Source: Hyphomicrobiales bacterium
GTDB taxonomy: Bacteria > Pseudomonadota > Alphaproteobacteria > Rhizobiales > Rhodobiaceae
Reading direction: 5' to 3'
Length of the DNA: 64,000 nt
NCBI GenBank assembly: GCA_002869065.1
Contig: PKTR01000004.1
Location: 248,001 to 312,000, forward strand
In this document: piece by piece, positions 9,427 to 48,607 of the stretch
Layout of the letters: every line of letters begins with the position of its first letter
Numbering within the stretch: position 1 is the stretch's first letter
Notes under the pieces: generated by a model
What the model saw: only the letters and a program-made list of their open reading frames with translations
What the model was told of the DNA's origin: nothing
Database searches by the model: none
Position numbers and translations under genes: made by a program

Positions 9427-9453
9427 TGCATTTCAATGGTCTTCGCACCGCGC

Positions 9454-11850: not shown

Positions 11851-11859
11851 CGATCGACC

Positions 11860-12410: not shown

Positions 12411-12443
12411 GCAAGAGCCCGGCCGCAACGGGCTGGGCTCTGC
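12411..12443 (-). terminator. Rho-independent terminator after phasin gene
   Basis: Read on the minus strand, a hairpin with a 7-bp core stem (AGAGCCC with GGGCTCT) is followed by GCGTTTTTG, placed about 45 bases after the phasin stop codon. The position and T run fit termination of the phasin transcript before it reaches clpS. Confidence 0.65.
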
Positions 12444-12488
12444 AATCCGATCAGCATTTTCGAAAGGGCCAAAGCGCCCCGAAAAAGC

Positions 12489-14583: not shown

Positions 14584-14638
14584 TGATCAGTTTCGGTCGG
14601 CCGGAAAGGGTACCGGCCGGCCCGTGTAAGCATATGCG

Positions 14639-15352: not shown

Positions 15353-15355
15353 CGT

Positions 15356-16081
15356 CTACCGCATCTGTTCGAGCAACAGGCGGGCCTCGCCCTTGCCCTG
15401 GTTCGACAGCGCCGTCAGCGCTTTGCGCCCGCCCGCAGCATAGGCAGCCACCGCCCGCAGCAACTCGCCAAGCCTGTGTGCCGAGCCCGCATCGAGCCGG
15501 CAATAGGCGCCCTTGCTAAGCCGGGCGATTTCGCGAAACGCCGCTTCAGCCTCCGGATCGCCGCCATCCTGAAACAGGAACACCGGCACGCCGAGCATGC
15601 CGAGTTCTCCGGCCTTCTGCGCCAGATCGTCGACATCCTCTTCCATGCAGTCGCCGACATAGATGAGCGCGCTGACCTTTTCCTTGCGCGTCTCGGAAAG
15701 CGCATGCGCCAGCACCTTGCGGATCTGCGTGTGTCCGCCGCGACAATCGATTTGCGTCATCAGCCCAGCCAGCGCCTTGGCGTTGCGCACCCATTTGCTC
15801 GACCGGCACTCGCCGAAGCCGCGGAAATAGACGAGTTGGACGTCGAGCCCACCGATGGCCGCCGCCTCTTCGAACATCTGACCCTGCAGCGAACAGGCGC
15901 GATCCCAGGTCGGCTGCCGGCTCATCGTCGCATCGAGCGCGAAGATCAGCCGCCCCTGCCCCTGCGCGGGCGGGGTCAGCGTCTGCGCCTTTTGCAGAAA
16001 CGCGTCGATCTCGGAGTCGCTCGACCGCCCGGCGAGCGCACCTCCCGCCGTCGGCTTTGCCGGTGTCTTGTCTTTCGACAT
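15356..16081 (-). CDS. VWA-like domain protein
   Basis: A protein of about 241 residues with a von Willebrand A-like fold. LIFALDATMSR at about residue 40 stands where the MIDAS DxSxS motif normally is, but reads DATMS. VSALIYVGDCMEEDVDDL fits the fourth-strand region and GVPVFLFQDGGD the late strand. There is no signal peptide or membrane span. ATG at 16081 begins SKDKTPAKP, with GGAAAGGG about 15 bases upstream; earlier starts add a low-conservation leader. It is followed immediately by the DnaJ-domain gene. The function is unknown. Confidence 0.75.
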   Translation of the reverse strand: MSKDKTPAKPTAGGALAGRSSDSEIDAFLQKAQTLTPPAQGQGRLIFALDATMSRQPTWDRACSLQGQMFEEAAAIGGLDVQLVYFRGFGECRSSKWVRNAKALAGLMTQIDCRGGHTQIRKVLAHALSETRKEKVSALIYVGDCMEEDVDDLAQKAGELGMLGVPVFLFQDGGDPEAEAAFREIARLSKGAYCRLDAGSAHRLGELLRAVAAYAAGGRKALTALSNQGKGEARLLLEQMR

Positions 16082-16298
16082 GCCGCCTGTGTTCCCTTTC
16101 CTCATGCCGCCGAACGCGCCGGGCACGGCGCACTGCCCCATAATGTGGCCCTGCCGGGAAAAATCGCAACGCCGCGAGCCGCCCTCGCGGCCACGAAGTG
16201 AATGAAGGGCAAAGTCTATGCTTTCAGCGAATTGGCGGAAACTGAGCAGAGTGATAGGGTCCCGCACCTTTTGACAGTCAGGCATGAGAGCGCGCCCA

Positions 16299-17153
16299 AT
16301 GACCGCTTACCCCGCTATCGCTTCCACGGTGGACGATCTCCGCCGCCGGGTTTCGATCTGGCGCAGCGACGGCAAGACCGTTGCCCTTGTCCCGACGATG
16401 GGCGCGCTACATGCCGGCCATTTGAAACTGATCGAGGAAGCCCGCAATCGCGCCCAGAAGGTCATCGTCTCGATCTTCGTCAATCCGACCCAGTTCGCGC
16501 CGACCGAGGATTTCGACTCCTATCCACGCACCTTCGACGACGATGTCGCCAAGATGCTGCCCTACGGCGTCGACGCGGTTTTCGCGCCCAACGCGGCGGA
16601 AATGTACCGCCCGGATTTCGCCACCGGCATCACGGTGAAGGGCCCCGCGCTCGGTCTCGAGACCGACTACCGGCCGCATTTCTTTTCCGGCGTTGCCGTC
16701 GTCGTCGCCAAGCTGCTCCTGTCGGCATTGCCCGACATCGCGCTGTTCGGCGAGAAGGACTATCAGCAGCTCCTCGTCGTGCGCCAGATGGTACGCGACC
16801 TCAACATCCCGACCGAAATCCTCGCAATTGAAACGGTGCGCGAGGATGACGGCCTCGCCATGTCGTCGCGCAACGCCTATTTGTCGAGCGCGGATCGCGT
16901 GACCGCCGCCCGCCTGAACGTCGAACTACGCGCGGTGGCCGACACGATTCGCGCCGGCGGCTCCGCCGAGACCGCCTTGAAGGCCGCACGGGCGGCCATT
17001 TCAGAAGCCGGTTTCCGCCTCGACTATCTCGAACTGCGCCACGCCGAGACCCTGCAGGCGATCGACCTGGACGCGGACAAGGATTTGCCGATGCGCCTGC
17101 TCGTCGCCGCCTGGCTCGGCAAGACGCGGCTGATCGACAATATCGGCGTGTAA
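16299..17153 (+). CDS. panC: Pantothenate synthetase
   Basis: A 284-residue enzyme joining pantoate and beta-alanine with ATP to form pantothenate, the precursor of coenzyme A. It has the class I-like HxGH motif in VPTMGALHAGHLKLI (about residues 31-45), IFVNPTQFAP, and the ATP-binding stretch ALFGEKDYQQL followed by a KMSKS-like MSSRNAYLS. An ATG 15 bases upstream (16284) is an alternative start. panB is not in the window. An intergenic repeat begins 8 bases after the stop. Confidence 0.95.
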   Translation: MTAYPAIASTVDDLRRRVSIWRSDGKTVALVPTMGALHAGHLKLIEEARNRAQKVIVSIFVNPTQFAPTEDFDSYPRTFDDDVAKMLPYGVDAVFAPNAAEMYRPDFATGITVKGPALGLETDYRPHFFSGVAVVVAKLLLSALPDIALFGEKDYQQLLVVRQMVRDLNIPTEILAIETVREDDGLAMSSRNAYLSSADRVTAARLNVELRAVADTIRAGGSAETALKAARAAISEAGFRLDYLELRHAETLQAIDLDADKDLPMRLLVAAWLGKTRLIDNIGV

Positions 17154-17160
17154 CGGCGCG

Positions 17161-17268
17161 GCTAGAGCATCGTGCAGCCAATTGGAACAATTGGCGTCGA
17201 CAAAGATGCAACTAAACAAAGGGATAGAGCATTTCGGCGATTCAACTCGAACGCAGAATGCTCTAGAG
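17161..17268. repeat. Intergenic repeat element, copy A
   Basis: The first 50 bases are identical to copy B (31655-31704). The element holds an inverted repeat CCAATTG/CAATTGG (17178-17184 and 17188-17194) and a perfect 9-bp inverted repeat TAGAGCATT/AATGCTCTA (17225-17233 and 17257-17265). A further TAGAGCAT at the left end could compete for the same right arm. It fills the gap between convergent panC and the DUF1489 gene, and the last codons and stop of the latter lie in the right arm. Confidence 0.85.
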
Positions 17269-17697
17269 CAGCCCGAGCTCGGAAAGGTCCCGCCGCATGT
17301 CCTCCGGCATCGCCTCGTCGCCGGGCCGCTCGAGGATATCGGCCGGCACGTCCTTTTCCTGCAGATAGCGCCAACCCTGAAACGGCCTCCGCGGCTGGAT
17401 CGCGGTCAACTGCACGGTCGGTTCGAACACGAGCTGACAGCGCGAGATGCCGTCCTCGCCGGTGACCGATCGGATATCAAGAATGCGCTGGCGCGCCTGC
17501 ACCGCACCCTTGATCACCCAATAGAGCGAGCCGCCGTCGAGCAACTCCTCGCGCCGTTTCGGCATCATCCGCGTGGTGTGGATCTGCTCGAACGGACGCC
17601 CGGTCGCTTCGGCAAGCCGCCGGCGGTCTTCAATCCAGTCGTGAAGATCCTCGACGCTCTCCGCGCCAACGCAAAGCTTGATCAGGTGCAGGGCCAT
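17263..17697 (-). CDS. DUF1489 family protein
   Basis: A 144-residue cytoplasmic protein beginning ALHLIKLCVGAESVEDLHDW, the signature start of the alphaproteobacterial DUF1489 family of unknown function. Other typical stretches are TTRMMPKRREELLDGGSLYWV and RRPFQGWRYL. ATG at 17697 is chosen from this conserved start. The final codons and TAG stop lie inside the inverted-repeat arm of intergenic repeat copy A, so the repeat helps define the C-terminus. Confidence 0.85.
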   Translation of the reverse strand: MALHLIKLCVGAESVEDLHDWIEDRRRLAEATGRPFEQIHTTRMMPKRREELLDGGSLYWVIKGAVQARQRILDIRSVTGEDGISRCQLVFEPTVQLTAIQPRRPFQGWRYLQEKDVPADILERPGDEAMPEDMRRDLSELGLL

Positions 17698-17923
17698 GAG
17701 GGGAGTTTTGCGGCTTTCCGTCGATCCGGTCAAACCTCGCGGCACGCTATCCACAGCTACGCGCGATGCCGTGACCGTGAGCATTTTCGCGGGCGACTAG
17801 TCCAAGCGTCGTATTTTGAAAGTGCCCCGATTTTCTGTAGGAATGCGCGTATTGCCCTGGAGCAGCTTGATCTCCGGTCGACTCGCACGGTCGAAACCGG
17901 TCGGAAACGGAAGGACGGACGGA

Positions 17924-18127
17924 ATGTCGATTGCCCGCGTTACCGAAATCACCTCGTCGTCGACCAAGAGCATCGAGGATGCCATCGATACCGGCATCGA
18001 CCGCGCCAACCGAACGCTCGACAACATCGAGGGCGCGTGGGTTCAGGACATCAAGGTGACCTGCAAGGACGGCAAGATCGACGAATGGCGGGTCAACATG
18101 AAGCTGACCTTCGTCCTTAAGGACTAG
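17924..18127 (+). CDS. Dodecin family flavin-binding protein
   Basis: A 67-residue protein with the dodecin pattern ARVTEITSSSTKSIEDAI at the N-terminus and WVQDIKVTCKDGKIDEWRV in the middle, including the Trp that stacks on the isoalloxazine ring. Dodecins form hollow dodecamers storing riboflavin, FMN or lumichrome. ATG at 17924 has a purine-rich GGAAGGACGGACGG just upstream. It stands as a single gene. Confidence 0.92.
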   Translation: MSIARVTEITSSSTKSIEDAIDTGIDRANRTLDNIEGAWVQDIKVTCKDGKIDEWRVNMKLTFVLKD

Positions 18128-18149
18128 CCCCGGTCCGTCACGCAGCGAT

Positions 18150-20102
18150 TTACGCGGCAGCCTCGTCCTCGATATCGGCAAGCGTCACGACCTCGGCGCC
18201 GTCATCGACCTGATCGCCCTCGCCCGCCAGCACGGCCGCGACGATGCCCGGCCCCGGCGCGACGACGACGTGCTCCATCTTCATCGCCTCAACGATGAAC
18301 AGCCGGTCGCCGGCAGCAACCGTCTGGCCTTCTTCGACGAAGACGGCGATCACCTTGCCGTGCATCGGCGCACGCACATGGCCATGCTCGTCCTCGCCTT
18401 CCGCCTTGCGGGTCAGCGCATCCTCGAGTGCGACACGCACCGCCCGCCCATCTTCGAGCGCATAGGCAACATCGCCGCACAGCGCGACAGACCCCGTCGC
18501 CGCGTCCGAGCTGCTTGTCTCGCCGAGCCCGACCGAAAACTGTCCGCCATTCCACACCAGCCGAACCTCGAGCGGCTCACCCTCGACGATCAACGTGCGG
18601 CCAATGTCGCGCACGCCGCCAAGCTGGAAGCCGTCATTGGCCTCGAACGGGTCGTTCCAGCCGCCGGCCGGCGCATCGCCGGTCCGCAGCAGCGCTGAGG
18701 CTGCCGCCGCAATTGCCGCATCGCCGACGCCGCCGTCAGTCAGCGCGCCGATCTCTCGATCGACCAGACCGGTGTCGAAGCCGCCATCGCGCACATGCGG
18801 GTGCCGCAGCACCGCGCGCAGGAAGCCGAGATTGGATTTCGGACCCGCCACAACCGTCTCGGCTAGCGCGGCCGCCAGCTTGTCGAGCGCTTCGCCCCGG
18901 GTGGCGCCGTGGGTGATGATCTTGGCAATCATCGGATCGTAGAACGGCGACACCACGCCGCCCTCGACGACGCCGGAGTCGACGCGCGCCAGATCGTCCG
19001 GCAGGCGCAGCACATCGAGCCGGCCCGACGACGGCAGGAAGCCCGTGTCCGGGTCTTCCGCGTAGAGCCGCACCTCGACCGCATGGCCGGAAAGCTGCAG
19101 TTCGTCCTGCGCCTTCGGCAGGGACTCACCTGAGGCCACGCGAAGCTGCCACTCGACCAGATCGACGCCGGTGATCGCTTCCGTCACCGGATGCTCGACC
19201 TGCAAGCGGGTATTCATTTCCATGAACCAGAAGCGGTCGGTACGCAGCCCCTCGCTGCCGTCGACGATGAACTCGACCGTGCCGGCGCCGACATAGCCGA
19301 CCGCCTTGGCCGCCGCCACCGCCGCCTCGCCCATCACCGAGCGCATCTCCGCGCTCATCCCCGGCGCGGGCGCTTCCTCAACCACCTTCTGGTGGCGCCG
19401 CTGCAGCGAGCAGTCGCGCTCGAACAGATGCACCGCATTGCCATGACCGTCGGCGAACACCTGCACTTCGACATGGCGCGGCGCGGCGACGAATTTCTCG
19501 ATCAGCACACGCTCATCGCCGAAGGCATTGCGCGCCTCGCGCTGCGCGGCTTCGAGCGCGGCCTCGAACTCGACCGCCTTGTCGATACGGCGCATACCCT
19601 TGCCGCCACCGCCGGCAACGGCCTTGATGAGCACCGGATAGCCAATCTCGTAGGCCTTCTGTTTCAGGAAGGCCGGCTCCTGCCGCTCGCCGTGATAGCC
19701 CGGCACCACCGGCACATCCGCGTCGGCCATGATCGCCTTGGCGCGGTCCTTCAGACCCATCTTGCGAATGGCGTCCGCCGGCGGGCCAACGAAAACGATA
19801 CCGGCCGCGGCGCAGGCCTCGGCAAACTCGGCGTTCTCGGAAAGGAAGCCGTAGCCCGGATGGATGCAGTCGACCCCCGTCGCCTTGGCAGCCGCGAGGA
19901 TCTTCTCCTTGACCAGATAGGATTCGGTCGCCGGCGCCGGGCCGATCGCCACCGCCTCGTCGGCGAAGCGGACATGCGGCGCATCTGCATCCGCGTCGGA
20001 ATAGACCGCGATGGTGCGCATCCCGAGACGCTTGGCGGTGCGCATGACGCGCACGGCGATTTCACCGCGATTGGCAACCAGGACGGAAGTGAGAAGCGCC
20101 AT
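18150..20102 (-). CDS. mccA: Methylcrotonyl-CoA carboxylase, biotin-containing alpha subunit
   Basis: A 650-residue acyl-CoA carboxylase alpha chain: biotin carboxylase N-domain (SVLVANRGEIAVRV), ATP-grasp with the Gly-rich AVAGGGGKGMRRI, biotin carboxylase C-domain with EMNTRLQVEHPVTE, a linker, and a C-terminal biotinyl domain with the biotin Lys in VEAMKMEHV. It carboxylates biotin and passes CO2 to the beta subunit in leucine breakdown. I assign it to MCC rather than PCC because the matching beta subunit (26142-27749) and isovaleryl-CoA dehydrogenase (34370-35542) lie on the same strand, and a separate PCC pair lies at 49.5-55.3 kb. The assignment is an inference. Confidence 0.8.
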   Translation of the reverse strand: MALLTSVLVANRGEIAVRVMRTAKRLGMRTIAVYSDADADAPHVRFADEAVAIGPAPATESYLVKEKILAAAKATGVDCIHPGYGFLSENAEFAEACAAAGIVFVGPPADAIRKMGLKDRAKAIMADADVPVVPGYHGERQEPAFLKQKAYEIGYPVLIKAVAGGGGKGMRRIDKAVEFEAALEAAQREARNAFGDERVLIEKFVAAPRHVEVQVFADGHGNAVHLFERDCSLQRRHQKVVEEAPAPGMSAEMRSVMGEAAVAAAKAVGYVGAGTVEFIVDGSEGLRTDRFWFMEMNTRLQVEHPVTEAITGVDLVEWQLRVASGESLPKAQDELQLSGHAVEVRLYAEDPDTGFLPSSGRLDVLRLPDDLARVDSGVVEGGVVSPFYDPMIAKIITHGATRGEALDKLAAALAETVVAGPKSNLGFLRAVLRHPHVRDGGFDTGLVDREIGALTDGGVGDAAIAAAASALLRTGDAPAGGWNDPFEANDGFQLGGVRDIGRTLIVEGEPLEVRLVWNGGQFSVGLGETSSSDAATGSVALCGDVAYALEDGRAVRVALEDALTRKAEGEDEHGHVRAPMHGKVIAVFVEEGQTVAAGDRLFIVEAMKMEHVVVAPGPGIVAAVLAGEGDQVDDGAEVVTLADIEDEAAA

Positions 20103-37924: not shown

Positions 37925-39403
37925 TCAGCCGAGGCCGAACCACCAGGCGGCGAAGCCGAGGAATGCAAAGAAGCCGACCACATCCGTTACGGTCGTCACG
38001 AAGACGCCGGAGGCGACCGCCGGATCGACCTCCAGCTTGTCGAGACCGATCGGAATGAGAATCCCAGATACGCCGGCAACGAGCAGATTGACTAGCATCG
38101 CCGCGGCTATGACACCGCCGAGCTGCGCATTGGCGAACCAGAGCCCTGCGACAAGCCCGATGATCAGCGCAAACAGAACCCCGTTGACGAAACCGACCAC
38201 GGTTTCACGACCGATCAGCCGGCGGGCGTTGTAGATGTCGAGTTCGCGGGTCGCGAGCGCGCGCACCGCAATGGTCATGGTCTGCGTCGCCGCATTGCCG
38301 CCCATCGAGGCCACGATGGGCATCAGCACGGCCAACGCCACCATCTGCTCGATTGTGGCGTCGAACAGCCCGATGACCAGCGATGCCAGAATGGCCGTTC
38401 CCAGATTGACCACGAGCCAGGGAAAGCGGCTGCGAACCGACGAGACGATAGAGTCCGACACCTCTTCGTCGCCGACACCGGCCATCAGCTTGAAGTCCTC
38501 GTCGGCTTCTTCGCGGATCACGTCGACGATATCGTCAATGGTCATCACACCGACCAGCCGCTCCGCGTCATCAACGACAGCCGCCGACACCAGATTGTAG
38601 CGCTCGAACAGATGCGCCACCTCTTCCTGGTCATCGGTCACTTCAACCAGGTTCCGCGTCTCATCGGTGAGTTCTGAAATCTTCGTCGGACGCTTTGCGC
38701 GCATCAGATGGCTGAGCGAAACCGTTCCCAGAAGCCGGAACGTCGGATCGACAACGAAAATCTCGTAGAACTCGTCCGGCAGCTCGTCGGCGTCGCGCAA
38801 GTAGTCGATGGTCTGGCCAACGGTCCAGAACGGCGGCACCGCGATGAAATCGGTCTGCATGCGCCGACCGGCCGAGTCTTCCGGATAGTCCAGCGAACGC
38901 TGCAGCTGAACCCGTTCGGGAAACGGCATCTCGTTGAGAATCGCCGTCTTGTCGGGTTCATCGAGGTCTTCGAGAATGTAGACCGCATCGTCCGAATCGA
39001 GCTCGCTGACGCCACGCGCGACCTGTTCTGGCGGCAGGTCCTCGAGAATGCGAACGCGAACCGTCTCATCGAGTTCGGTCAGGGCCGTGAAGTCGAAGTC
39101 CGCGCCAAGAGACCGGACCAGCTTACCCTGGTCGTCGGCCGGCAGCGCCTCGATCAGATCGCCGAGGTCGGCTTCGTGCAGGTCCTCGGTCGCCGCCCGC
39201 AACAGGTCGACATCGTCGTCCTCGAGCGCCGTTCGGATGACAGTGACGAATTCCTTCGACAGGCCATCGTCCTCATCCCGGATCTCCGGGATCAGATCGA
39301 CCTCTTCTTCCGTCGCTGCACTGGTCTCATGATCGGCCAAGCTAGTCTCCGAACAGCGGCTGCGTCTCGCGACACCGGAATCCTCGTGAGGTGTAGCGTG
39401 CAT
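37925..39403 (-). CDS. mgtE: Magnesium transporter MgtE
   Basis: A 492-residue transporter: an N-terminal helical superfamily domain with acidic repeats (LIEALPADDQGKLV, ELDSDDAVYILEDLD), two CBS domains (about residues 160-280) and five C-terminal membrane helices with family motifs VLMPIVASMGGNAATQT and NARRLIGRETVVGFVNG. The CBS part senses Mg2+ and gates the pore. ATG at 39403 has GGAG about 10 bases upstream; a TTG near 39340 after GGAGA is an alternative start. It marks the left edge of the accessory region. Confidence 0.93.
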   Translation of the reverse strand: MHATPHEDSGVARRSRCSETSLADHETSAATEEEVDLIPEIRDEDDGLSKEFVTVIRTALEDDDVDLLRAATEDLHEADLGDLIEALPADDQGKLVRSLGADFDFTALTELDETVRVRILEDLPPEQVARGVSELDSDDAVYILEDLDEPDKTAILNEMPFPERVQLQRSLDYPEDSAGRRMQTDFIAVPPFWTVGQTIDYLRDADELPDEFYEIFVVDPTFRLLGTVSLSHLMRAKRPTKISELTDETRNLVEVTDDQEEVAHLFERYNLVSAAVVDDAERLVGVMTIDDIVDVIREEADEDFKLMAGVGDEEVSDSIVSSVRSRFPWLVVNLGTAILASLVIGLFDATIEQMVALAVLMPIVASMGGNAATQTMTIAVRALATRELDIYNARRLIGRETVVGFVNGVLFALIIGLVAGLWFANAQLGGVIAAAMLVNLLVAGVSGILIPIGLDKLEVDPAVASGVFVTTVTDVVGFFAFLGFAAWWFGLG

Positions 39404-39973
39404 GCCGATCTATCTCCACCGAAAAATCGGCGGGGCAAACCGCGGATAAGCGGAATCAAAACGGCCGCCGCATCGGCGCGTCTCCAACGAGCCCTTCGCG
39501 GTTTGTCCGCTCCCGCGGCCACCCGCGAGCAAGGAACATATTCCGCATCCCCGAAGGCCATGTTACCACCGCAACGTCCCCTAGCATTCCCACGAGGCGG
39601 CACTCACGGACAACCGGGGACCTTGATCTGAAACTCTGTTTCCCACCAGATACTTAAATGCAAGGCGACGAGGAAAATCACCGCAAGAGAGAACCGGAAT
39701 TGGTCAAGACGTTCCCGATCCAACCGTCTTTGTGACATATCTTTGAGCAATACGACTCGTTGATGCCGTTTTTGATTGACGTTAAGATGCGCCAGCGCTT
39801 GATACCATGTCGCAGTGCGCAACATTCGGTTGCATGGTATCGGGGTTACCGCTTGATTCAGTTGCAATCAATCTACTTTGGTGCCGGAAACAATCTCTTC
39901 CGACCTGCACGTCGCCACAGGGCGCGTAAGTTAGCGTTTGTCGATTGGGAAAAGAAACGAGAAACCGTGAGTG
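39404..39973. other. Gene-poor region with sharp drop in GC
   Basis: 570 bases between divergent mgtE and the first glycosyltransferase. The first 200 bases are as GC-rich as the rest; from about 39600 the DNA turns noticeably A/T-rich, with different base composition into the next gene. A minus-strand frame at 39604-39867 (87 codons) has one hydrophobic span, LAVIFLVALHLSIWW, but no ribosome-binding site that I trust. I treat it as uncertain. Confidence 0.5.
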
Positions 39974-40999
39974 ATGGCCAAGAATAGTCCGGTTTTCAAT
40001 ACAACCAAATTGACGCAGTACATGCACCATATCGATGGTTTCGAGAAAGTGCTGCATATCGCGCACCACGAATGGCATGGAATCAGGCATGCGACCGGGT
40101 TTTGCCCGGGCCACAAACTGTTGATCGACTCCGAAGAACCAATAGAGCCGGCACAGCTTCAAAGAATCGAAGAGTGGATCGAGATCAACAAGATCGAGAG
40201 AATCGTATTTCAGGGCTACTCCATAATCGCCGACAAGCTGGCCGTGAATTTGCGGTCTAAATTTGGTGACACGATCCGCTTCTTTGTCATCACCCATGTG
40301 ACGACCGCGCAGTTCGATAATGTTTTCGAAATAAAAATGCAGAACACCGTGCTGACGCGCAAGAAGTATGGTGTTTTTTCAAAAATAGCCTCCGTGAAAC
40401 CGAAGTTCAGCGGGACATTTGAGGACTATTGGCCGCATACGATTATCAATTTCGCGCCGAATATCATCCAGGGCACGTTCCCGAAAGTGTTGAATGGCGT
40501 GGAAGTTCTGTCCCCACTTGAGCTTGGCTGGCGAAAGAATCTCTACACCAATATTTTCGCGAGCCATCTGGCGGAGAATGTGGATCGGGTGAAGGTGACC
40601 TTTTTCCCACCGGGAATCGAGTCGATCTTCGATATCTCGAAACTGCGTTATGTCGGCCTGCTGCGTGGTCCGGATCTCTTTGCCGAGATGGCGAACAGCT
40701 CGGCCGTCGTGATGGCGACGCTGGCTGAATGCCAGCCCATGACGCAGCTGGAAGCGTTCGCGGTCGGCACACCCGCATTGACGGGTCCCTTGAACATGTC
40801 CGAGTACGCCGACGATGAATTGATCCGTTTGTGCACAGCGAGCGCGCTCGACAACCCCGCCCTGCTGGCCCGCGACATTGAGCGGTTGATTGACCTCGTC
40901 AAAACAGATCCGGACCACATGGACGGCTTGATCCAGCAGCATCTTTTGCGGAGAAACAAGGATGCCGCGGAGCGCTACGCTTCGTTCCTTGACCTGTAA
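39974..40999 (+). CDS. GT-B-like glycosyltransferase
   Basis: A protein of about 341 residues. The C-terminal third resembles family 4 glycosyltransferases: SAVVMATLAECQPMTQLEAFAVGTPALTG (about residues 237-265) aligns with the donor-site region, where an acidic residue and E(x7)E normally sit. The N-terminal half is poorly conserved. Codon use is richer in A/T-ending codons than in the neighbours. A GTG 3 bases earlier is an alternative start. The stop overlaps the next ATG (TAATG), so both enzymes are coupled. Donor and acceptor are unknown. Confidence 0.7.
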   Translation: MAKNSPVFNTTKLTQYMHHIDGFEKVLHIAHHEWHGIRHATGFCPGHKLLIDSEEPIEPAQLQRIEEWIEINKIERIVFQGYSIIADKLAVNLRSKFGDTIRFFVITHVTTAQFDNVFEIKMQNTVLTRKKYGVFSKIASVKPKFSGTFEDYWPHTIINFAPNIIQGTFPKVLNGVEVLSPLELGWRKNLYTNIFASHLAENVDRVKVTFFPPGIESIFDISKLRYVGLLRGPDLFAEMANSSAVVMATLAECQPMTQLEAFAVGTPALTGPLNMSEYADDELIRLCTASALDNPALLARDIERLIDLVKTDPDHMDGLIQQHLLRRNKDAAERYASFLDL

Positions 41000-43581
41000 T
41001 GCGGCGCAGCGAGATTGAAGAGATTGTGATGCCGAAAACTTCGCGCCCTTCGATTTGTTTCATTACCAATGAGCTCTATCCGGCAGCCCCCGGCGGCATC
41101 GGGCGAATGCTCTATAATTTCGCAAAACAGAACGAAGCCCTGGGATTTCCGGCCGAGATCAATTTCCTCATCCCCACCGATTTCGCCAACAAGCCCGGCG
41201 CAATGGATGCCCTCGACGATGCGTTCGAGGGCATCGCGGAAATCCATGTGTTTCCGAAATTGCAGGACTTGCCCGACGCGTTCGCACACGCGCTGTTCAA
41301 GCATCGCCCCTGGACGCTGGAACTGCATATCTCGACGTCGTATCGCTACTACCTCGGTCTGCGTGAGCTCGAACGCAAGAGAAAGAAGAAGTTCGACTTC
41401 ATCGAGTTCCCCGATTTCGGCGGCTGGGGAACCGTATCGATCGAGGCGAAGCGGGCTGGCATCGCCTTCCAGGACACCATTATCGGGGTACGCATCCACT
41501 CCACGCTGGGGCTGATTTCCAGCTACGAACGTTACTCGCGCGACCCCGGCCCGTGGGATGGCGTGGTGCTGGATTCAGAACGCCACCAGCTCACCTATGC
41601 CGATCTCATCGTCGGCCACGACCCGCTGATCCTGGAGACGAACACGCGTTTTTATGATCTGGACGAAAGGTGGCGCGACCGGGTCGTCTGCGAGTTCCCG
41701 CCCATCATGCTCGATCTCGACAGCGACCAGACGGGCAGCAATACGAGAAGTGGCGAGACGGAAGAACACACCGACGTTTCTCCAGCGAACCGGGACTTCA
41801 TCTTCTCCTCACGGCTGCAGCCGTTCAAGCGCCCCGACCTTTTCGTCTATGCCGCCGTCGCCTTTCTTGAACGCAACCCCGACTACCAGGGAGTGTGCAG
41901 GGTTGTCTCCTATGGCTGGGACGACGAGTACATCGCCGGCCTCCAGGACATCGTTCCCCCGCACCTCGCCGACCGGATTCCGTTCATTTTCGATGCGACG
42001 CCTGCGGAGCGTGACGACTACCTGCAGAATTCCGTCGTCGTCATACCCTCCGAATACGAAAGCCTGTGCCTGTTCGCCTACGAGTCCTCGCAAATGGGCT
42101 GCCAGGTGATCTTGAACCGGGACTGCGTGGTGTTCGGTCAGAACGCGCGCTGGAAGGATGGCGACAACTGCGTGATGTTCGACGGCACCGTTGACGACCT
42201 CGTGTTGGCGATGGAGCGGGTCCGCGACTGGACGCCGCGTTCGCAGGTCGATTTTGCCGCCGACACCCCCTACTGGCTGCTCGATAAACTGCCATCCCAA
42301 GTCAGCATACGCGACGAAGAGCCTGGTCCCAGGGCAAATGTCAGCGTGGTTTGCTTCGGCTTTCAGGAAGTGCGGGAATTCCAGAAGCTCTTCAGTTCAC
42401 TGGTTCATATCGAACGAGAACTGCAGCTTGCCGACGGTAGCGACGAAATCGTGTTCTTGCTGCCGCGTGCCCTCTTCTCACCGGGCGGTAACGAGCAGCG
42501 GCTGATCGAGGAACGTGGCTGGAAGGCGGAGTTCATTCATGGCTTCCGCGAGAGCGCGGAGACATTCTCGCGCCGGCTCCGTCAGCGCGACAGCGAGTGC
42601 ATCCTGCTCGTCGAAGTGGGCTTCGAGCTCTATCCCGGTTTTGTCCCCGCGGCGAAAAAGGCGATGGAGAGAGATGGCTCGCTGCAGATCGTCGGTGGCC
42701 ACGTCGAAATTCTCGACAGCGACACAGGACACAGCGACTATCTGAAAGCCTATGGAGGCGAGATGCCCTCACTGGCTTTGGTGTCGAGCCAGATTGCACC
42801 GCCAACAAGCATGTTTCGGCGCTCTTTGCTGGAGCGGATCGGGTTCGATCCGCACGCAGCGGCGCTCTGGTTCGAGGTTTTCGTCCGCAAATGCGTGCTC
42901 GCAGGCGAAAAGATCGTCGTTGCTCCCCTCTTCTGCGCGTCCCTGGACCCTGTGTTCGCCGAAAAGCCCGACACGACGGTTCGCATCAATGGCGGCATAA
43001 CCGACGCGGTCGGCCGGGAACTGGGCTTCAGGGGACGCCTGCTGGCATTTGGTCCGCTGAAGCAACCCGACAAGACCGGTCAGCTCTCGGTGGTGCTGGG
43101 TCCCGACAAACTGAAGCAGGCGATCCGCATCAACCCGGTCGGCAGAGTCCGGAATTGGGAGCCGGTTTTCTATCGCAACGACCTCAAGGGATTGCAGGTT
43201 CACCCCCTGAACGGCGATGTCACGATTGCCGAGGTGATTGGCCCGAGCCGAAAGATGCGCCGCATTCAGGCTGTGATTCACAACGGGCACGCCGAAAACA
43301 CCGGGATTGAAGCCGCCATCGCAATCGTCCCGAAATCCGCGGAGACGCCGGAGATCGTCCAGTTTCTGACGAGCGAGAGCAAAAAGCCCGGGTTTGCGAT
43401 GAGCTCATGGGTGGAGGTGCCACCCAAGGAGACTCTCGAAATCGATCTGGCAACCCTCCGCGCCAGCAACGGGCGCGACAGAATCCTGATGGTCTCACGC
43501 CTGCCACTTTATTCGAATGAGGATTTCGGACATCTCGTTTTCAGGAAAATCGAGATCTGGCTGAATACCAATTTGCGCTGA
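40999..43581 (+). CDS. Large multidomain glycosyltransferase
   Basis: An 860-residue protein. Residues about 10-435 form a GT-B, family 4-like enzyme: ICFITNELYPAAPGGIGRML at the N-terminus, FIFSSRLQPFKRPDLF at about 266, and the donor-binding VIPSEYESLCLFAYESSQ with E(x7)E at about 347. From about 447 (NVSVVCFGFQEVREF) comes a second domain with a GT-A-like alternation of strands and helices but no clear DxD. The last about 150 residues look like a beta-sandwich. A linked polymerising or two-step enzyme is possible. It overlaps the upstream gene by one base. Confidence 0.75.
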   Translation: MRRSEIEEIVMPKTSRPSICFITNELYPAAPGGIGRMLYNFAKQNEALGFPAEINFLIPTDFANKPGAMDALDDAFEGIAEIHVFPKLQDLPDAFAHALFKHRPWTLELHISTSYRYYLGLRELERKRKKKFDFIEFPDFGGWGTVSIEAKRAGIAFQDTIIGVRIHSTLGLISSYERYSRDPGPWDGVVLDSERHQLTYADLIVGHDPLILETNTRFYDLDERWRDRVVCEFPPIMLDLDSDQTGSNTRSGETEEHTDVSPANRDFIFSSRLQPFKRPDLFVYAAVAFLERNPDYQGVCRVVSYGWDDEYIAGLQDIVPPHLADRIPFIFDATPAERDDYLQNSVVVIPSEYESLCLFAYESSQMGCQVILNRDCVVFGQNARWKDGDNCVMFDGTVDDLVLAMERVRDWTPRSQVDFAADTPYWLLDKLPSQVSIRDEEPGPRANVSVVCFGFQEVREFQKLFSSLVHIERELQLADGSDEIVFLLPRALFSPGGNEQRLIEERGWKAEFIHGFRESAETFSRRLRQRDSECILLVEVGFELYPGFVPAAKKAMERDGSLQIVGGHVEILDSDTGHSDYLKAYGGEMPSLALVSSQIAPPTSMFRRSLLERIGFDPHAAALWFEVFVRKCVLAGEKIVVAPLFCASLDPVFAEKPDTTVRINGGITDAVGRELGFRGRLLAFGPLKQPDKTGQLSVVLGPDKLKQAIRINPVGRVRNWEPVFYRNDLKGLQVHPLNGDVTIAEVIGPSRKMRRIQAVIHNGHAENTGIEAAIAIVPKSAETPEIVQFLTSESKKPGFAMSSWVEVPPKETLEIDLATLRASNGRDRILMVSRLPLYSNEDFGHLVFRKIEIWLNTNLR

Positions 43582-43588
43582 GGGGATT

Positions 43589-44233
43589 ATGGGCAAGAGC
43601 TTGCTCGGATTGAGAAACATCCGGATCGGGTCAAACAGGGGCCGCGACGTTCCGAGCCCGCTCGGTACCGAGAAGAAACACTTTGATTTCTACGGAACCA
43701 CATGGGGATTCTCCGACAAGAAAGCGTCGCGCGAGCTGAACATCGGCAGCATCAAGCCGTACGAGAGAATCCTGCCCGGAATGATCTGGGGCTGCGCGCG
43801 CGAACCGGAGCATCGTGCCGACGTCCAGCTGCACAAGGATGAAAGTAACGAGGACGCGTTGTTCCTGAATTTCCAGGCGCCGCATTCCCGCTTTCTGACC
43901 CTCGAATTCGACCTCGACCACACCGCGCTGGCGAATGGCGGCGTCGTAAGCCTGATGCTCGAAGCGTCCGCAGTGCCAACGACATCCTGCCGCGCCGCGG
44001 TGCGCTTCTCCACGCCCGACGTCGAGCGCGGCTTTCACGACGCTCCCCTTCGCAAGTTCGTTTTCACGAGCAATGCCGCGCCGATCACGATATCGGGCTT
44101 TGTCGACCCTGTGCTGGACAACAAGCGCTTGCCTGTCACGCGCGCCAAACTGATCCTGTTCATGTCGAAACGGGAACTCACGCTCGCCATTCGGCGAATT
44201 TCGATTTCGCCGGCTCCGATAGCAGCTCGGTAA
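43589..44233 (+). CDS. Protein of unknown function in glycan cluster
   Basis: A 214-residue protein without signal peptide or membrane span. GAGGGG lies 3 bases before the ATG and overlaps the previous stop. It alternates short hydrophobic strands with charged turns (SRFLTLEFDLDHTAL, GVVSLMLEASAVP, KLILFMSKRELTLAIRRISI), suggesting a beta-sandwich. Its ending resembles in style the end of the large glycosyltransferase (FGHLVFRKIEIWL). It may bind the glycan or scaffold the enzymes; I do not recognise the family. Confidence 0.65.
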   Translation: MGKSLLGLRNIRIGSNRGRDVPSPLGTEKKHFDFYGTTWGFSDKKASRELNIGSIKPYERILPGMIWGCAREPEHRADVQLHKDESNEDALFLNFQAPHSRFLTLEFDLDHTALANGGVVSLMLEASAVPTTSCRAAVRFSTPDVERGFHDAPLRKFVFTSNAAPITISGFVDPVLDNKRLPVTRAKLILFMSKRELTLAIRRISISPAPIAAR

Positions 44234-44437
44234 ACGTCAGGAGTTCTTCGACCGTCTCGGTTGCCGTGTCCCGCCGCCATTTGCGATCAATGGTCACCGG
44301 ATCCCGAAGCGCACATGCGCGTGGCTCGTGTAGCTGAACAGCCAAAAACGGCGCCATTTCCCTTTCCAAACCGGTGCTCGCATTGTACCTAAGCGGCATC
44401 GCATACACACCGGCGCAAACAAACAGGGAGCCATCCG

Positions 44438-45223
44438 TTGTCGGGTAACAAGTTCGGGATTTTGCTCGCTCGCCAACGCTCCGGCACCGGAGCGTTGGGC
44501 TCAATATTGGATCGCCATCGCCAGCTTCATTATCTCGGCGAAATCCTGCATCCGGGAAATCTCGGCCAGGAGAAGAACTTCTTCACGTACCTGTCCCAGG
44601 TGCTCGAAGAGGACAAGGAGGCGTTCCTCCCGAAGAACAGGCTCCACGTGCTGGACAAGTTCGTCGACACGATGCGGGAGGACGGCGTCACCCCGATCCT
44701 CGATGTCAAATACAGCAGCATTCATCACCTCTACGGCGACTGGCAGAGCCCTCTCTCCCGCCCCCAGATCCTCAACCACGCCGAAGGCCGCGTCGTCCCG
44801 ATCATTCACTTGACCCGGAAGAACCATGCAAAGACGTTTGTGTCCGGCCGATTGGCCGAAACGAACGCTGTCTGGCATACCAACGACAAGTCGGCCGCAC
44901 AAATCCGAAGCATTGAAATCAACCCTGCGCAGCTTCTGCGGTTTATCCGGAACTCGGTAAGAGAATCCAAGCTCGTCCAGAAGTGGCTGGCGGGGCACCC
45001 GCGCGTCGTGACTTTCGACTACTCCGATATGCTGGATCCGCAGGGACGACTGACCGACACCATTTGCGAAAAACTTTCGACGACGCTGGGTATTGAGAGT
45101 TTCGTTGAAAAGCAGCCGTCATTCGTCAAGCAGGCGCCGGACTCGCTGAAAGAGTCGATCAAGAATTACGATGAGGTCGCCGACCACCTGAGTGACACCA
45201 GTTTCCGTTGGATGCTGAAATAG
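44438..45223 (+). CDS. Sulfotransferase (Stf0-like)
   Basis: A 261-residue cytosolic protein with sulfotransferase PAPS-binding features. The 5'-phosphosulfate loop is LARQRSGTGALGSILD (residues about 10-25) and the 3'-phosphate site is IIHLTRKNHAKTFVSG (about 121-136). The acceptor side is variable; short relatives of this type sulfate glycolipids or sugars. The start is TTG at 44438 with AGGGAG about 9 bases upstream. A 204-base gap separates it from the unknown gene, so it may have its own promoter. Confidence 0.78.
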   Translation: MSGNKFGILLARQRSGTGALGSILDRHRQLHYLGEILHPGNLGQEKNFFTYLSQVLEEDKEAFLPKNRLHVLDKFVDTMREDGVTPILDVKYSSIHHLYGDWQSPLSRPQILNHAEGRVVPIIHLTRKNHAKTFVSGRLAETNAVWHTNDKSAAQIRSIEINPAQLLRFIRNSVRESKLVQKWLAGHPRVVTFDYSDMLDPQGRLTDTICEKLSTTLGIESFVEKQPSFVKQAPDSLKESIKNYDEVADHLSDTSFRWMLK

Positions 45224-45321
45224 AAAAAACATTCAGTTGAGGTTCCGCACTCTGGGTGTCGAGCGCGAGTGCCGCGGGGAAATCAGATGGAACAGGATTC
45301 CGTCTGGTATTCGGAGGATGC

Positions 45322-46500
45322 ATGGTACACAAACTTCTCATTAATGATGTCCTGCGCGACAGCGCCGTATCAAAAGAAGAAAAATACGCGTATTTTCCGA
45401 TCGGCAAAGCGGCAAACACAAATATTAAGAGGTGGCTTTGGGAAGTTGAATGCGCGCGCGGCTACGAAACACCTGTACCGCAGACGTATTTCGACGTTCA
45501 CAACTACGGCTGGATCAACGCCGATAGAGAAACGCCCTGGATCGCATTCTCTCGAAAAAGCGGCGCGGATTTCGCGACCGCGCTGGCGTCAAAATTCAAA
45601 TTCACCGTAGTCCGTAATCCGTTTCTTCGAACGCTGTCCGGCTACCGGGACAAGATCGAATCTGCCAAGCACCCCGGCCCTGCGACGGCTGCGAAGTTCA
45701 AACTGCCGAGCTATCCGGAAAGTTTCGAAGAATTCGTCGCAATGGTCTGCGACCAGGACGACAGCCAGTCTGATATTCATTTCCGCAGCCAGACCTATAG
45801 CTGCCTGTACAATTTCGTCAAATTCGACAAGATCGTCCACATCGAGAACCTTTCAGACGAACTGGGCGAGGTCTCGCAAAGCTGCTTCGGATCAAACCAT
45901 GCCGAAGCCAACTCCAGCGAGGCCAAGCATGCAACCGGCTCGTCGAGCGTGTTTGAAAAGTATTTTACGCCTGACCTGATCGACGCCCTCAAAAAGCGGT
46001 TCAAATCCGATTTCGAGCTGCTCGGTTACAGCGATGATCCCCTCGTCCAGGCGCCCGTACGTCCGGTCGGGAACTCCGGACGGTATGCCGAGATATTCCC
46101 CGACCTCCTTGCCCTCAGCGCCGGCGATCCGTCGGAACCGGCAAAAAACATCCAACAATGGCTGGCGAGAACCGAGGTCGATCAAGGCGCCGCGTTCGGC
46201 CTGACGAAGTATCTCGAACAGATGACGCGCATCTGGGACAACACGCAGGCGCGCAACGAACCGAGTTCCGAAATCACCACCAAGGATCTGTTGGCAGGAG
46301 CAGAGAATTCGCAACTGACCGGCGACCAGTTGGGCGGCGATGCGGCGTTCGAACTGGCCGATACGATACTGCGCAATCTTCGCCTCAAGATCAGCACGCA
46401 GGGAAGCGGCACCGTCGACGTCGAAGGCTTCGGCAGATTTTCTTTCAAGCGCAACAAGAACGGAGCGCGCCGCATCCTCTTTTCGCCGGGCGACCACTGA
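45322..46500 (+). CDS. Sulfotransferase family 2 protein
   Basis: A 392-residue protein. The N-terminal 230 residues match the carbohydrate sulfotransferase (Sulfotransfer_2, HNK-1/chondroitin type) pattern: YAYFPIGKAANTNIKRWLW for the 5'-phosphosulfate site and FTVVRNPFLRTLSGYRDK for the 3'-phosphate site. The last about 130 residues (ending GRFSFKRNKNGARRILF) are extra and unrecognised. No membrane anchor is seen, unlike eukaryotic relatives. ATG at 45322 follows GGAGG closely. It is distinct in type from the sulfotransferase just upstream, so two different positions may be sulfated. Confidence 0.8.
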   Translation: MVHKLLINDVLRDSAVSKEEKYAYFPIGKAANTNIKRWLWEVECARGYETPVPQTYFDVHNYGWINADRETPWIAFSRKSGADFATALASKFKFTVVRNPFLRTLSGYRDKIESAKHPGPATAAKFKLPSYPESFEEFVAMVCDQDDSQSDIHFRSQTYSCLYNFVKFDKIVHIENLSDELGEVSQSCFGSNHAEANSSEAKHATGSSSVFEKYFTPDLIDALKKRFKSDFELLGYSDDPLVQAPVRPVGNSGRYAEIFPDLLALSAGDPSEPAKNIQQWLARTEVDQGAAFGLTKYLEQMTRIWDNTQARNEPSSEITTKDLLAGAENSQLTGDQLGGDAAFELADTILRNLRLKISTQGSGTVDVEGFGRFSFKRNKNGARRILFSPGDH

Positions 46501-46950
46501 CGGATCTAGATGCGTTCCGTGCGCAGCGCGATCCTGACAGCAGGAGTCCTCTCCACGGCCACTGCGGGTCGGATCATCGCCGCGACACCCTACGGCATAG
46601 CCGCAGCGCTCAATGCGCCTTGAGAACCGCTCAGACGGCGGCCATCGCCGATGGCGGTTCCGATCGCATATCGGCCTGAAAGGCCGTGATACGCCGCATT
46701 GCGACCCCACAGGCCCGCGCTGTGGGAAAAGCGCTGCCGCGCTTCGGCTTTCGAGCCGCTCCGACCGCCGTCGGCTCCACGAGAACAAGCGACAAAAAGC
46801 CTGTTCGGATTTCGCCGTCTGCGCACCCGATCCGGGCAGCGCGCAGAAAAACCGAACCGGGGGAAGAGTTCTCAACGCCGGCCGGTGAATAGGCCGGCCG
46901 TGATTTGGCAGTCGTTGGCTACCTCTGTCGGCTGTTGGCGAACTCAGGCC
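46501..46950. other. Gene-poor stretch after the glycan cluster
   Basis: 450 bases without a convincing gene. A 37-codon frame at 46510-46623 reads like a signal peptide (ILTAGVLSTATAGRIIAA) and then stops, which may be a decayed gene. A GC-rich inverted repeat (GGCCGG type) lies at about 46870-46895 without a T run. No integrase or transposase remnant was seen. Confidence 0.45.
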
Positions 46951-47201
46951 TCACTGCGCATCATAGAGCGCGTATCTGCGGGCCTTCGCGGATTGGGTGC
47001 AGGTCTTCTTCGCAAACGTCGTGGCGGCGTTCTTCGGCGACTTGCCGTAGGAATAGCCGCAACAGAAGCCATCCGCGGAGACGTGGAAGGCCTTGTGCCC
47101 GTTCCTCCCCCGCGGTTGCTGAACATCCCCTTGCAGTCGCTCGATTGAATCGCAGGCGCTGCAAACACGGCGGCTGAACCGGATACGGCGACGCGCAACA
47201 A
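46951..47201 (-). pseudogene. Small secreted protein gene with a frameshift
   Basis: Two overlapping minus-strand frames together make a sensible protein. The first (TTG at 47201 after CGGAGG) encodes a signal peptide, RVAVSGSAAVFAAPA, and then CKGMFSNRGG. The second carries GHKAFHVSADGFCCGYSYG and ends TCTQSAKARRYALYDAQ, a Cys-containing domain style common in rhizobial secreted proteins. The switch falls at a five-C run (47107-47111; G run on the coding strand). One extra G there would join them into about 83 residues. It may be a real mutation or a sequencing error. Confidence 0.6.
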
Positions 47202-47232
47202 GGCGACCTCCGAAATACAACGGCAGAATCAA

Positions 47233-47257
47233 AAAGGGCTCCACGAAGGAGCCCTTT
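47233..47257 (-). terminator. Terminator after tRNA-Leu
   Basis: A perfect stem AAAGGGCTCC with GGAGCCCTTT and a T run on the minus strand, 4 bases past the CCA end of the tRNA. It ends the tRNA transcript before the frameshifted gene. Confidence 0.85.
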
Positions 47258-47260
47258 AAA

Positions 47261-47347
47261 TGGTGCGGTCGAGAAGACTCGAACTTCCACGGGTTTTACC
47301 CCACAGCGACCTCAACGCTGCGCGTCTACCAATTCCGCCACGACCGC
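47261..47347 (-). tRNA. tRNA-Leu (anticodon GAG)
   Basis: Read on the minus strand, 87 bases fold as a class II tRNA: acceptor GCGGTCG with CGACCGC, discriminator A, encoded CCA, D arm with GGTAGACGC, anticodon stem CAGCG/CGCTG around loop TTGAGGT (anticodon GAG, reading CUC and CUU codons), a long variable arm GGGGTAAAACCC, and T arm with TTCGAGT. The long variable arm identifies leucine. It lies at the right edge of the accessory region. Confidence 0.95.
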
Positions 47348-47487
47348 GAAAGGAAAGCGCGAACTGCCGTTCGGCGCGCCTTCATGTATCAAATCGATGT
47401 CCCCGGTTCAAGCGCCATGATCGATTGATCGCAATATCCCTTGCCGGGATTTTCCAGCCTTCCAGAGGCACGGATAAACTGTTGAAA

Positions 47488-47763
47488 TTATTGGGGGTCG
47501 ATACAGCGGACTGTTTGCCGGGTCTTGCTTTCCGCACCCCGCATCAGCACTTCCGTGATGGTAATGCCGATTTTTTCGCCCTGAAGCACGACGCGCCCGC
47601 GCGCAATCGGGATATCGTTTGCCAACACCTCGACGTCATCGTCCTCGTTCGTGTCGAGCTCGATGACCGCGCCACGGCCCATACGCAGCAGCTGATGCAC
47701 AGGCATGATCGACGAGCCGAGAACGACCGAGAGTTCGACATCGATCTTATCGAAAGTTGACAT
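47488..47763 (-). CDS. FliN/SpoA-domain protein
   Basis: A 91-residue protein consisting of one SpoA (surface presentation of antigens) domain: VELSVVLGSSIMPVHQLLRMGRGAVIEL, then VEVLANDIPIARGRVVLQGEKIGITITEV. This matches FliN, which forms the flagellar C-ring with FliM, and the related type III secretion protein. No other flagellar gene is near, so it is either a displaced fliN or a stand-alone SpoA protein. AAGG lies just before the ATG. Confidence 0.85.
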   Translation of the reverse strand: MSTFDKIDVELSVVLGSSIMPVHQLLRMGRGAVIELDTNEDDDVEVLANDIPIARGRVVLQGEKIGITITEVLMRGAESKTRQTVRCIDPQ

Positions 47764-47860
47764 ATGCGCGCCTTGACCAACAGTGCCCGTGCAGCTCGAA
47801 GCGAACCGCCGCGTCGAGTTAAGCTTGACGAGCGAACCGTTACCGGATGGTTAACGTCTT

Positions 47861-48607
47861 ATGGTTAACGAAAGACAAACAGCGCGGCAGCCCTTCCTTG
47901 CCACCGACCCCGCCGATGCGGTCGAATGGATGATCTCCGACGCGCTCATCCCCTACCCTGAAGCCGTTGCCGCGATGGAAGCCCGTGTCGCCGCGATTGC
48001 GGACGGCACGGCGGCGGAATGCGTCTGGCTGCTCGAACACCCGCCGCTCTATACCGCCGGCACCAGCGCCGATCCGGGCGACCTCGTCGCACCGGATCGC
48101 TTCCCCGTCTACCAGACAGGGCGCGGCGGCCAGTACACCTATCACGGCCCCGGACAGCGGGTCGCCTATGTCATGCTCGATCTGAAGCGCCGTCGCCCGG
48201 ATGTGCGCGCCTTCGTCGTCGCGCTCGAGGAATGGCTGATTCGCACCCTGTGGCAGTATCACGTGCGCGGCGAACGCCGTGACGACCGCGTCGGCGTCTG
48301 GGTCCGCCGGCCCGACAAGGGCGTGGCGGTCGAAGACAAGATCGCGGCAATCGGCATTCGCCTGCGACGCTGGGTCAGCTTTCACGGTATCTCGCTCAAC
48401 GTTGAACCGGAACTCGACCATTTCTCGGGAATCATCCCCTGTGGAATTCGCGAGCACGGCGTCACCAGCCTCGTCGACCTTGGCATTCCCGTAACCCTGG
48501 CTGAAGTAGACATGATCCTGCGTCGCGAGTTCGAGGAGCTTTTCGGCGAAACGGTTGCAGTCCCCCCGCTGCTGGCCAATATGGAAGAAGCAACGAACAC
48601 CGAGTGA
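47861..48607 (+). CDS. lipB: Octanoyltransferase LipB
   Basis: A 248-residue enzyme that moves octanoate from acyl carrier protein to lipoyl domains, the first step of lipoate synthesis. The substrate-binding [19 protein letters not shown] is at about residues 85-103, the active Lys in [15 protein letters not shown], and the catalytic Cys in [15 protein letters not shown]. The ATG at 47861 is divergent from the SpoA gene. A membrane-protein gene follows after 4 nt. Confidence 0.96.

Follow-up and report, generated by a model that had tools for sequence, protein, structure and literature searches.

The window analysed here is a stretch of 64,000 nucleotides of contig PKTR01000004.1 (assembly GCA_002869065.1) from a Hyphomicrobiales bacterium, whose genome (G000) is ~99% complete and in 7 contigs. 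As a first-pass annotation had stated, it carries five plus-strand genes in a row; they appear in the open reading frame listing as the co-directional frames g1–g5, spanning 39974–46500 (Table 1). The annotation regarded them as a cassette making a sulfated glycan, and the gene products, the relatives and the genomic surroundings of the cassette are considered here in turn.

A five-gene cassette at a variable tRNA-adjacent site

The cassette is located between an mgtE gene and a tRNA-Leu gene. The mgtE, tRNA-Leu, fliN-like, and lipB-like genes are syntenic in both congeners of the window genome (G001 and G002), and the mgtE–tRNA interval of the congeners (2/2) holds no cassette and contains a gene that reads in translation as aminotransferase-like, with homology to the window starting at 47260, the 3′ end of tRNA-Leu. 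Neither congener genome has a match to g2 or g3, and both have weak g5-like matches elsewhere. The GC content is 0.526–0.598 across g1–g5, compared with 0.617–0.677 in nine other window genes checked. Because the cassette is absent from the two congeners and differs in composition, it was apparently acquired at this site, with neither an attachment repeat nor an integrase seen: no copy of the tRNA-Leu end was found at the left edge among 20 of the 29 direct-repeat families (39300–48000), and scanning ten frames of the site and its surroundings revealed no integrase. Promoter and terminator scans of the site performed no better than shuffles.

Two start sites may deserve revision. The coupled start of g1 and g2 proposed in the first-pass annotation (TAATG, 40997–41001) is doubtful, because the annotated g2 of Chelatococcus begins at the equivalent of Met11, that is, ATG 41029; this ATG, preceded in the window by GAAGAG at a distance of six bases, is the probable true start of g2. 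The start of g5 may be ATG 45322, with GGAGG four bases upstream, instead of GTG 45256, and the g4–g5 gap would then be 98 bp and not 32 bp. An antisense frame of 108 amino acids (aa) without a Pfam match (44178–44504, minus strand) runs across the 204-bp gap between g3 and g4.

Table 1 Features of the cassette and its site in the window, and sulfotransferase-like genes near g2 in four related loci (positions of the latter within the locus named)
Feature	Position	Strand	Description
mgtE	37925..39403	-	MgtE-type transporter gene (Pfam MgtE 1e-33); left edge of variable site
g1	39974..40999	+	GT4-like glycosyltransferase domain, 341 aa, E-x7-E at residues 252/260; frame listed from GTG 39971
g2	40999..43581	+	GT4-like glycosyltransferase, middle region, C-terminal DUF6212; 860 aa; probable true start ATG 41029
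g3	43589..44233	+	Beta-sandwich protein, carbohydrate-binding-module-like predicted fold, 214 aa
g4	44438..45223	+	Divergent Stf0/NodH-like sulfotransferase (predicted), 261 aa, TTG start
g5	45256..46500	+	Sulfotransfer_2 family protein; possible true start ATG 45322
tRNA-Leu(GAG)	47261..47347	-	ARAGORN + Rfam; 3′ end = right edge of variable site
L040 gene	9492-10547		Sulfotransferase-like motif, near g2; by eye
L041 gene	9501-10526		Sulfotransferase-like motif, near g2; by eye
L042 gene	9532-10569		Sulfotransferase-like motif, near g2; by eye
L035 gene	16925-17998		Sulfotransferase-like motif, near g2; by eye

Predicted products of g1–g5

The products of g1 and g2 look like glycosyltransferases of family GT4, in line with the two glycosyltransferases named in the first-pass annotation. 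In Pfam, g1 matches PF13692 (E 1.1e-5, 26.2 bits vs a curated cut-off of 27) and g2 matches PF00534 (E 2e-4, 21.4 bits vs 26.4), with further sub-cut-off GT4 matches of g2 to PF13692 and to the NCBIfam MshA family TIGR03449 (E 2.3e-8), while their homologues in Chelatococcus CO-6 pass the GT4 cut-off (28.6 and 32.0 vs 27 bits). In 13/13 of the relatives described below, both proteins keep the E-x7-E pair, a hallmark of GT4; the conserved residues with GT4 roles are E252 and E260 in g1 and R272, K277, E354, and E362 in g2, likewise in 13/13. The C-terminal end of g2 matches DUF6212 over the curated Pfam cut-off; an open-access literature search returned no paper with DUF6212.

Two sulfotransferases of different families had also been proposed, and the assignment is retained with unequal strength for g5 and g4. 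The g5 protein is clearly a member of Sulfotransfer_2 (PF03567; 8.5e-23, 82.2 bits vs a cut-off of 22, residues 37–259), predicted to depend on 3′-phosphoadenosine 5′-phosphosulfate (PAPS), and contains the motifs GKAANTNIK and VVRNPFLRTLSGYRDK; residues ~260–414 have no Pfam match. The g4 protein is, with moderate confidence, a divergent sulfotransferase, as judged from a predicted superfamily fold, a NodH profile match, and both binding motifs. Sulfotransferases carry motifs for binding the 5′-phosphosulfate and the 3′-phosphate, and the two segments QRSGTGA-x-GS-x-LD and HLTR-x-N-x4-FVSG are invariant in the six g4-family sequences. The g4 profile matches PDB entry 9vki, named lipopolysaccharide sulfotransferase NodH, at 8e-4 over g4 residues 7–40, that is, the 5′ PAPS-binding-like motif, with no single stretch passing alone; the single g4 and g5 sequences gave no phmmer match in PDB at E≤1. 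For the structural model of g4 (predicted local distance difference test, pLDDT, 70), the 16 best VIA rows are all sulfotransferases (Z 8.8–6.8), headed by 4gox (Z 8.8) and including Stf0 1tex (Z 8.1), and the next is an adenylate kinase (Z 6.6). Searched alone against Pfam, g4 gives sub-threshold matches to Stf0 (PF09037; E 0.023, 14.6 vs 22 bits) and Sulfotransfer_3 (E 0.03), and it was not assigned to the Stf0 family, its score lying under the cut-off.

The g3 protein, which had been left as the one unknown of the cassette, indeed has no sequence family (no Pfam or NCBIfam match at E≤1), but its predicted fold is not featureless. The model (pLDDT 62) shows a beta-sandwich, and its best VIA rows are carbohydrate-binding modules (CBMs) of family CBM4, with Z up to 10.8; rows of CBM4, 22, 30, 11, 29, and 28 give Z 8.1–10.8 over 124–149 residues, and agarase domains, tailspike domains, and human promeprin appear further down among the 50 rows. 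We thus describe g3 as having a CBM-like predicted fold, a likeness that by itself is no proof of sugar binding. A profile comparison between g3 and the C-terminal DUF6212 part of g2 gave a probability of 0.1%, and we propose no kinship between the two.

Relatives and their gene neighbourhoods

Relatives were collected with a g2-only query and two short peptide patterns in one genome each for 84,980 species, so that divergent relatives are missed, and each locus covers ≤10 kb on each side, some ending at contig ends (L033, L040–L042), so that absence means absence from the stretch. Thirteen loci were obtained, all alphaproteobacterial: Chelatococcus (3), Novosphingobium (2), Sphingomonas (2), Kordiimonas (2), and one each from Sedimentitalea and three metagenome-assembled genomes (MAGs; Sphingomonadales, Rhodobacteraceae, and alphaproteobacterial). 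Two Chelatococcus plasmids add further g2 relatives, and a separate search found two divergent g1–g2 pairs (in G134 and G185). The 15 loci should not be counted as fully independent, since L029 and L031 hardly differ in the genes that were compared, and L030 and L043 seem similar.

In 13/13 loci, g2 has a g1 homologue immediately before it, in some cases with a slight overlap (~50–55% identity; 40–41% in L040–L042), and the g2 relatives are 32–47% identical over most of their length in the 13 loci and the two plasmids. A GT2 domain precedes g1 in five Chelatococcus and five sphingomonad loci, in CO-6 within the same protein, whereas g1 stands alone in the window and in L035. Homologues of g3 follow g2 directly in L035 (the Rhodobacteraceae MAG) and L038 (Sedimentitalea), at 23–24% identity (E 8e-9 and 2e-7), and homologues of g4 (44–47% identity) occur in 5/13 loci and on both Chelatococcus plasmids, being fused in Chelatococcus to an FkbM methyltransferase domain. 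The window order g1-g2-g3-g4 is reproduced in L035, with g4 directly after g3. This recurrence of g4 near g2 is not background, because a g4 profile run against 385 genomes of the class hit five at E≤0.001 and scored above 120 bits only in the window genome itself (1/385), the next being 114.6.

Judged from this occurrence (13/13 for g1–g2, 2/13 for g3, and 5/13 for g4 versus 0/13 for g5), g1-g2-(g3)-g4 form a module that travels, and g5, outside it, was added locally; the first-pass expectation that the genes travel together thus holds fully for g1–g2, partly for g3 and g4, and not for g5. Sulfation at two positions, which had been proposed along with it, becomes a weak suggestion because g5 is outside the conserved module. 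It is even possible, though we lean against it, that the functional module comprises g1–g4 only and that g5 shares the tRNA-adjacent site with them as an unrelated or recruited gene. Besides its absence from the relative loci, the g5 relatives found are domains elsewhere of 24–36% identity, and its GC content at third codon positions (GC3, 0.672) is below that of g2–g4 (0.753–0.763), although g1 is also low (0.693). Against this reading, its PAPS-binding-like motifs are intact and its frame is open, immediately past g4 on the same strand, and in L054 a g5-like gene adjoins an FkbM gene and a GT2 like the one before Chelatococcus g1. In that locus (G023:C11:900000-919999, 13001–17091), the g5-like and FkbM genes both lie in frames of very low GC3, and the GT2 belongs to an 860-aa protein. 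Two adjacent g5-like genes that carry the motif PKAANSSIK and are only distantly related to g5 were noticed in a congener (L053, G001:C4:250000-269999, 8348–9923).

The five Chelatococcus loci (three genome contigs and two plasmids) contain g1, g2, g4, and cysD-cysNC within ~11 kb. The two annotated plasmids have GDP-fucose genes and polysaccharide exporters of the ATP-binding cassette (ABC) type upstream, and the exporter ATPase of CO-6 has a Wzt_C domain. In the sphingomonad loci, a KpsE-like gene (cluster c6) is present in 5/5, and L037 encodes KpsE- (253 bits vs an NCBIfam cut-off of 437.5), KpsM-, and ABC-ATPase-type proteins, all below the NCBIfam cut-offs. A Pfam count on 50 proteins of these loci, hand-picked from 81 frames of ≥150 aa and listing 25 of the 48 families, so that single-member families may be hidden, gave 4 ABC_tran, 3 Poly_export, 2 ABC2_membrane, 2 Capsule_synth, and 2 Wzz. 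These neighbours place g1–g2 near ABC-dependent capsule synthesis. As no sulfotransferase family was among the 25 of 48 sphingomonad families listed, sulfation seems optional to the glycosyltransferase pair.

Other features of these loci were observed in passing. Within ~9 kb of g2, L038 has three more genes that Pfam recognises as sulfotransferases, of which one barely exceeds the cut-off. Genes near g2 in L040, L041, L042, and L035 (Table 1) show, by eye, N-terminal sulfotransferase-like motifs such as HIGHPKCGSSTLQ or HIGHYKTGTSAIQ; the proteins of L040 and L035 have no Pfam match at 0.01. In all five Chelatococcus loci, the g4-FkbM gene is separated from cysD by a DUF2793 gene (L029, 19404–20858), and a relative of the latter lies upstream of g1 in Sedimentitalea (L038, ~5020–5637).

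An acceptor of the Nod-factor or mycobacterial sulfolipid style, that is, a small glycolipid or secreted lipo-oligosaccharide sulfated by a NodH/Stf0-like g4, is suggested by the nearest named relatives of g4 being NodH and Stf0. We regard it as improbable, since in relatives the surrounding genes comprise exporters of polymers and genes for capsules, and since neither g1–g5 nor the two annotated Chelatococcus stretches include a gene named as nod-type acyl or chitin-oligosaccharide. Slightly less probable still is that g1–g5 act on a glycan attached to a protein such as flagellin, or place sulfate on a protein itself. Just past tRNA-Leu there is a FliN-like gene, and a tetratricopeptide-repeat Sulfotransfer_3 gene lies beside a flagellin-like gene elsewhere in the genome (L048, G000:C3:296000-315999, 9369–11105 and 11425–12846); this flagellin-like gene, however, is on another contig with its own sulfotransferase alongside, and among the annotated g1–g2 neighbours (not all are annotated) genes for polysaccharides come up repeatedly, while none for flagella was noticed. 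The L048 pair lies among genes that look flagellar from their translations, suggesting in its own right that a flagellar glycan or protein may be sulfated.

Predicted role and comparison with known systems

The first-pass annotation noted that the cassette has no genes for PAPS synthesis or export and so needs others, and such genes do occur elsewhere in the genome. The window genome has one Sat-type ATP sulfurylase, found in neither congener, and one adenosine 5′-phosphosulfate (APS) kinase, within a CysNC protein whose gene adjoins CysQ and two nucleotide-sugar epimerase-family genes. PF01507, which covers both CysD and CysH, has no match in the window genome and two in each congener. This absence may reflect a gap in the assembly; if real, PAPS may be made and not reduced by a CysH-type enzyme, which would fit a role in sulfation. 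As to export, two Capsule_synth (KpsC/KpsS-type) proteins are encoded on the same contig as the cassette, after a gene that reads as polyketide synthase-like, an aminotransferase-family gene, and a short-chain dehydrogenase/reductase gene, an arrangement that presumably resembles the rkp-1 region of rhizobia. No match to Wzt_C was obtained in the window genome.

Taking the above together, we favour, with a probability of roughly 0.6, the reading that g1–g5 represent an apparently acquired module for assembling and sulfating a capsule-type polysaccharide. The making of a sulfated glycan, as first annotated, is well supported for g1–g4, because these genes recur together and because g1, g2, and g4 of Chelatococcus adjoin genes for PAPS synthesis and, on the two annotated plasmids, for polysaccharide export, and does not extend to g5, which stands outside the module. 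In the scheme that we infer, in which the enzymatic activities, the acceptor, the sulfated positions, and the route of export are all predictions, g1 and g2 would attach sugars, on the cytoplasmic side, to a precursor of a capsular polysaccharide of the Kps/Rkp type (K-antigen-like), and the CBM-like g3, presumably also cytoplasmic, may serve to recognise the capsular glycan. The g4 protein would then move sulfate from PAPS onto this glycan, and g5, recruited locally, may be another carbohydrate sulfotransferase that acts on this glycan or on a related one. PAPS would be provided by Sat and the APS-kinase part of CysNC, with the resulting 3′-phosphoadenosine 5′-phosphate cleared by CysQ, and the product would be exported via the capsule genes elsewhere on the chromosome. 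An extended version, in which the stand-alone cytoplasmic g3 presents the glycan to the glycosyltransferase pair and the sulfotransferase, and in which CysD/CysH-type genes have been lost so that PAPS serves glycan sulfation solely, is a speculation that we consider unlikely.

Several observations weigh against the favoured scheme. The support for g4 is moderate because only 3 VIA chains reach Z 8, rows within Z 1 of each other counting as tied, and because Foldseek alone on the model gave no match below 0.001; g3 occurs in only 2/13 loci, and its model confidence is low; g5 homologues are missing from all 13; and no sulfotransferase family appeared among the 25 of 48 families listed for the sphingomonad sample. 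The absence of PF01507 is neither special to the window genome nor unusual in the order (present in 15/21 genomes searched, with 5 of the other 20 also lacking it), and CysN has no CysD partner there, so that PAPS supply rests on Sat and the APS-kinase domain. Finally, ~230 kb separate the Capsule_synth genes from the cassette, and contig C1 also carries a polysaccharide locus of the Wzz/Wzy type.

This last locus (~425–433 kb) offers another destination for the module, which might decorate its exopolysaccharide in place of a Kps/Rkp-type capsule. It encodes a Poly_export-like protein (EpsE, 86.8 bits, below the cut-off), a Wzz-domain protein, a Wzy_C/O-antigen ligase protein, and a GT4 protein, with a Sulfotransfer_3 gene ~15 kb from its GT4 gene, and the two Wzz members among the sphingomonad proteins point in the same direction. 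Because the g1–g2 pairs of relatives sit with ABC-type capsule or O-antigen exporters, we hold this destination to be unlikely and retain the capsule. In L046 on C1 (G000:C1:435000-454999, 9234–20000), two very long open frames that resemble each other at their N-termini come after a Sulfotransfer_3 gene.

The proposed role is worth comparing with those of known systems. The capsule region of Vibrio sp. KMM 8419 combines KpsDMET-type export with glycosyltransferases, sulfotransferases, and cysC/cysN/cysD in second copy, and the paper on it considers PAPS genes together with sulfotransferases in a polysaccharide cluster to be a hallmark of sulfated polysaccharide synthesis (PMC11641403). The window cassette likewise has glycosyltransferases and sulfotransferases in one cluster and is of the same kind, the likeness being one of gene content and not of compared proteins; it differs in having five genes only, none of them (0/5) for PAPS synthesis, with the PAPS and capsule genes elsewhere, but in the five Chelatococcus loci PAPS-synthesis genes stand beside the module. 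The xss cluster of Synechocystis, as described in a 2021 paper, directs a sulfated surface polymer (synechan) with two sulfotransferases of distinct subfamilies and several glycosyltransferases (PMC8205485). Two distinct sulfotransferases together with glycosyltransferases are shared with the window, again by gene content and not by proteins, whereas xss has Wzx/Wzy-type polymerisation and its own regulators, both lacking in the cassette, the relatives of which point to ABC-type capsule export. With mycobacterial Stf0 and rhizobial NodH, g4 shares the predicted fold and the 9vki profile match, but it falls below the Pfam Stf0 cut-off, has another neighbourhood, and is FkbM-fused in Chelatococcus. 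With the group 2 Kps capsules and the rhizobial Rkp K-antigen systems, the relatives of g1–g2 share adjoining KpsE-like and ABC-exporter genes, the sphingomonad loci share Poly_export and Capsule_synth, and the window genome shares Capsule_synth; in contrast, the window glycosyltransferases are distant from the Capsule_synth genes, and sulfation genes have been added.

The 2021 paper states that no sulfated surface polymer had been reported outside cyanobacteria (PMC8205485), and the sulfated Vibrio capsule was described afterwards (PMC11641403). In an open-access literature search, no paper was found that combines Chelatococcus with a sulfated exopolysaccharide or that joins sulfotransferase, FkbM, capsule, and glycosyltransferase; the two in which Chelatococcus and sulfotransferase occur together are, by their titles, on other subjects. 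A sulfated capsule of Cobetia has reportedly also been described after 2021. Sulfated surface polymers are thus little described in bacteria, and the findings here suggest a conserved glycosyltransferase pair, tied to capsule-type export in several alphaproteobacterial groups, to which sulfation is optional; in the cultivable Chelatococcus strains, with the glycan, PAPS, and export genes in one stretch, this is directly testable. Altogether, the module belongs to a known kind of gene cluster, that for a sulfated surface polysaccharide, and not to a new kind, differing from the Vibrio and synechan systems by the stand-alone CBM-like protein, the FkbM-fused sulfotransferase in relatives, and the dispersed genes for supply and export.

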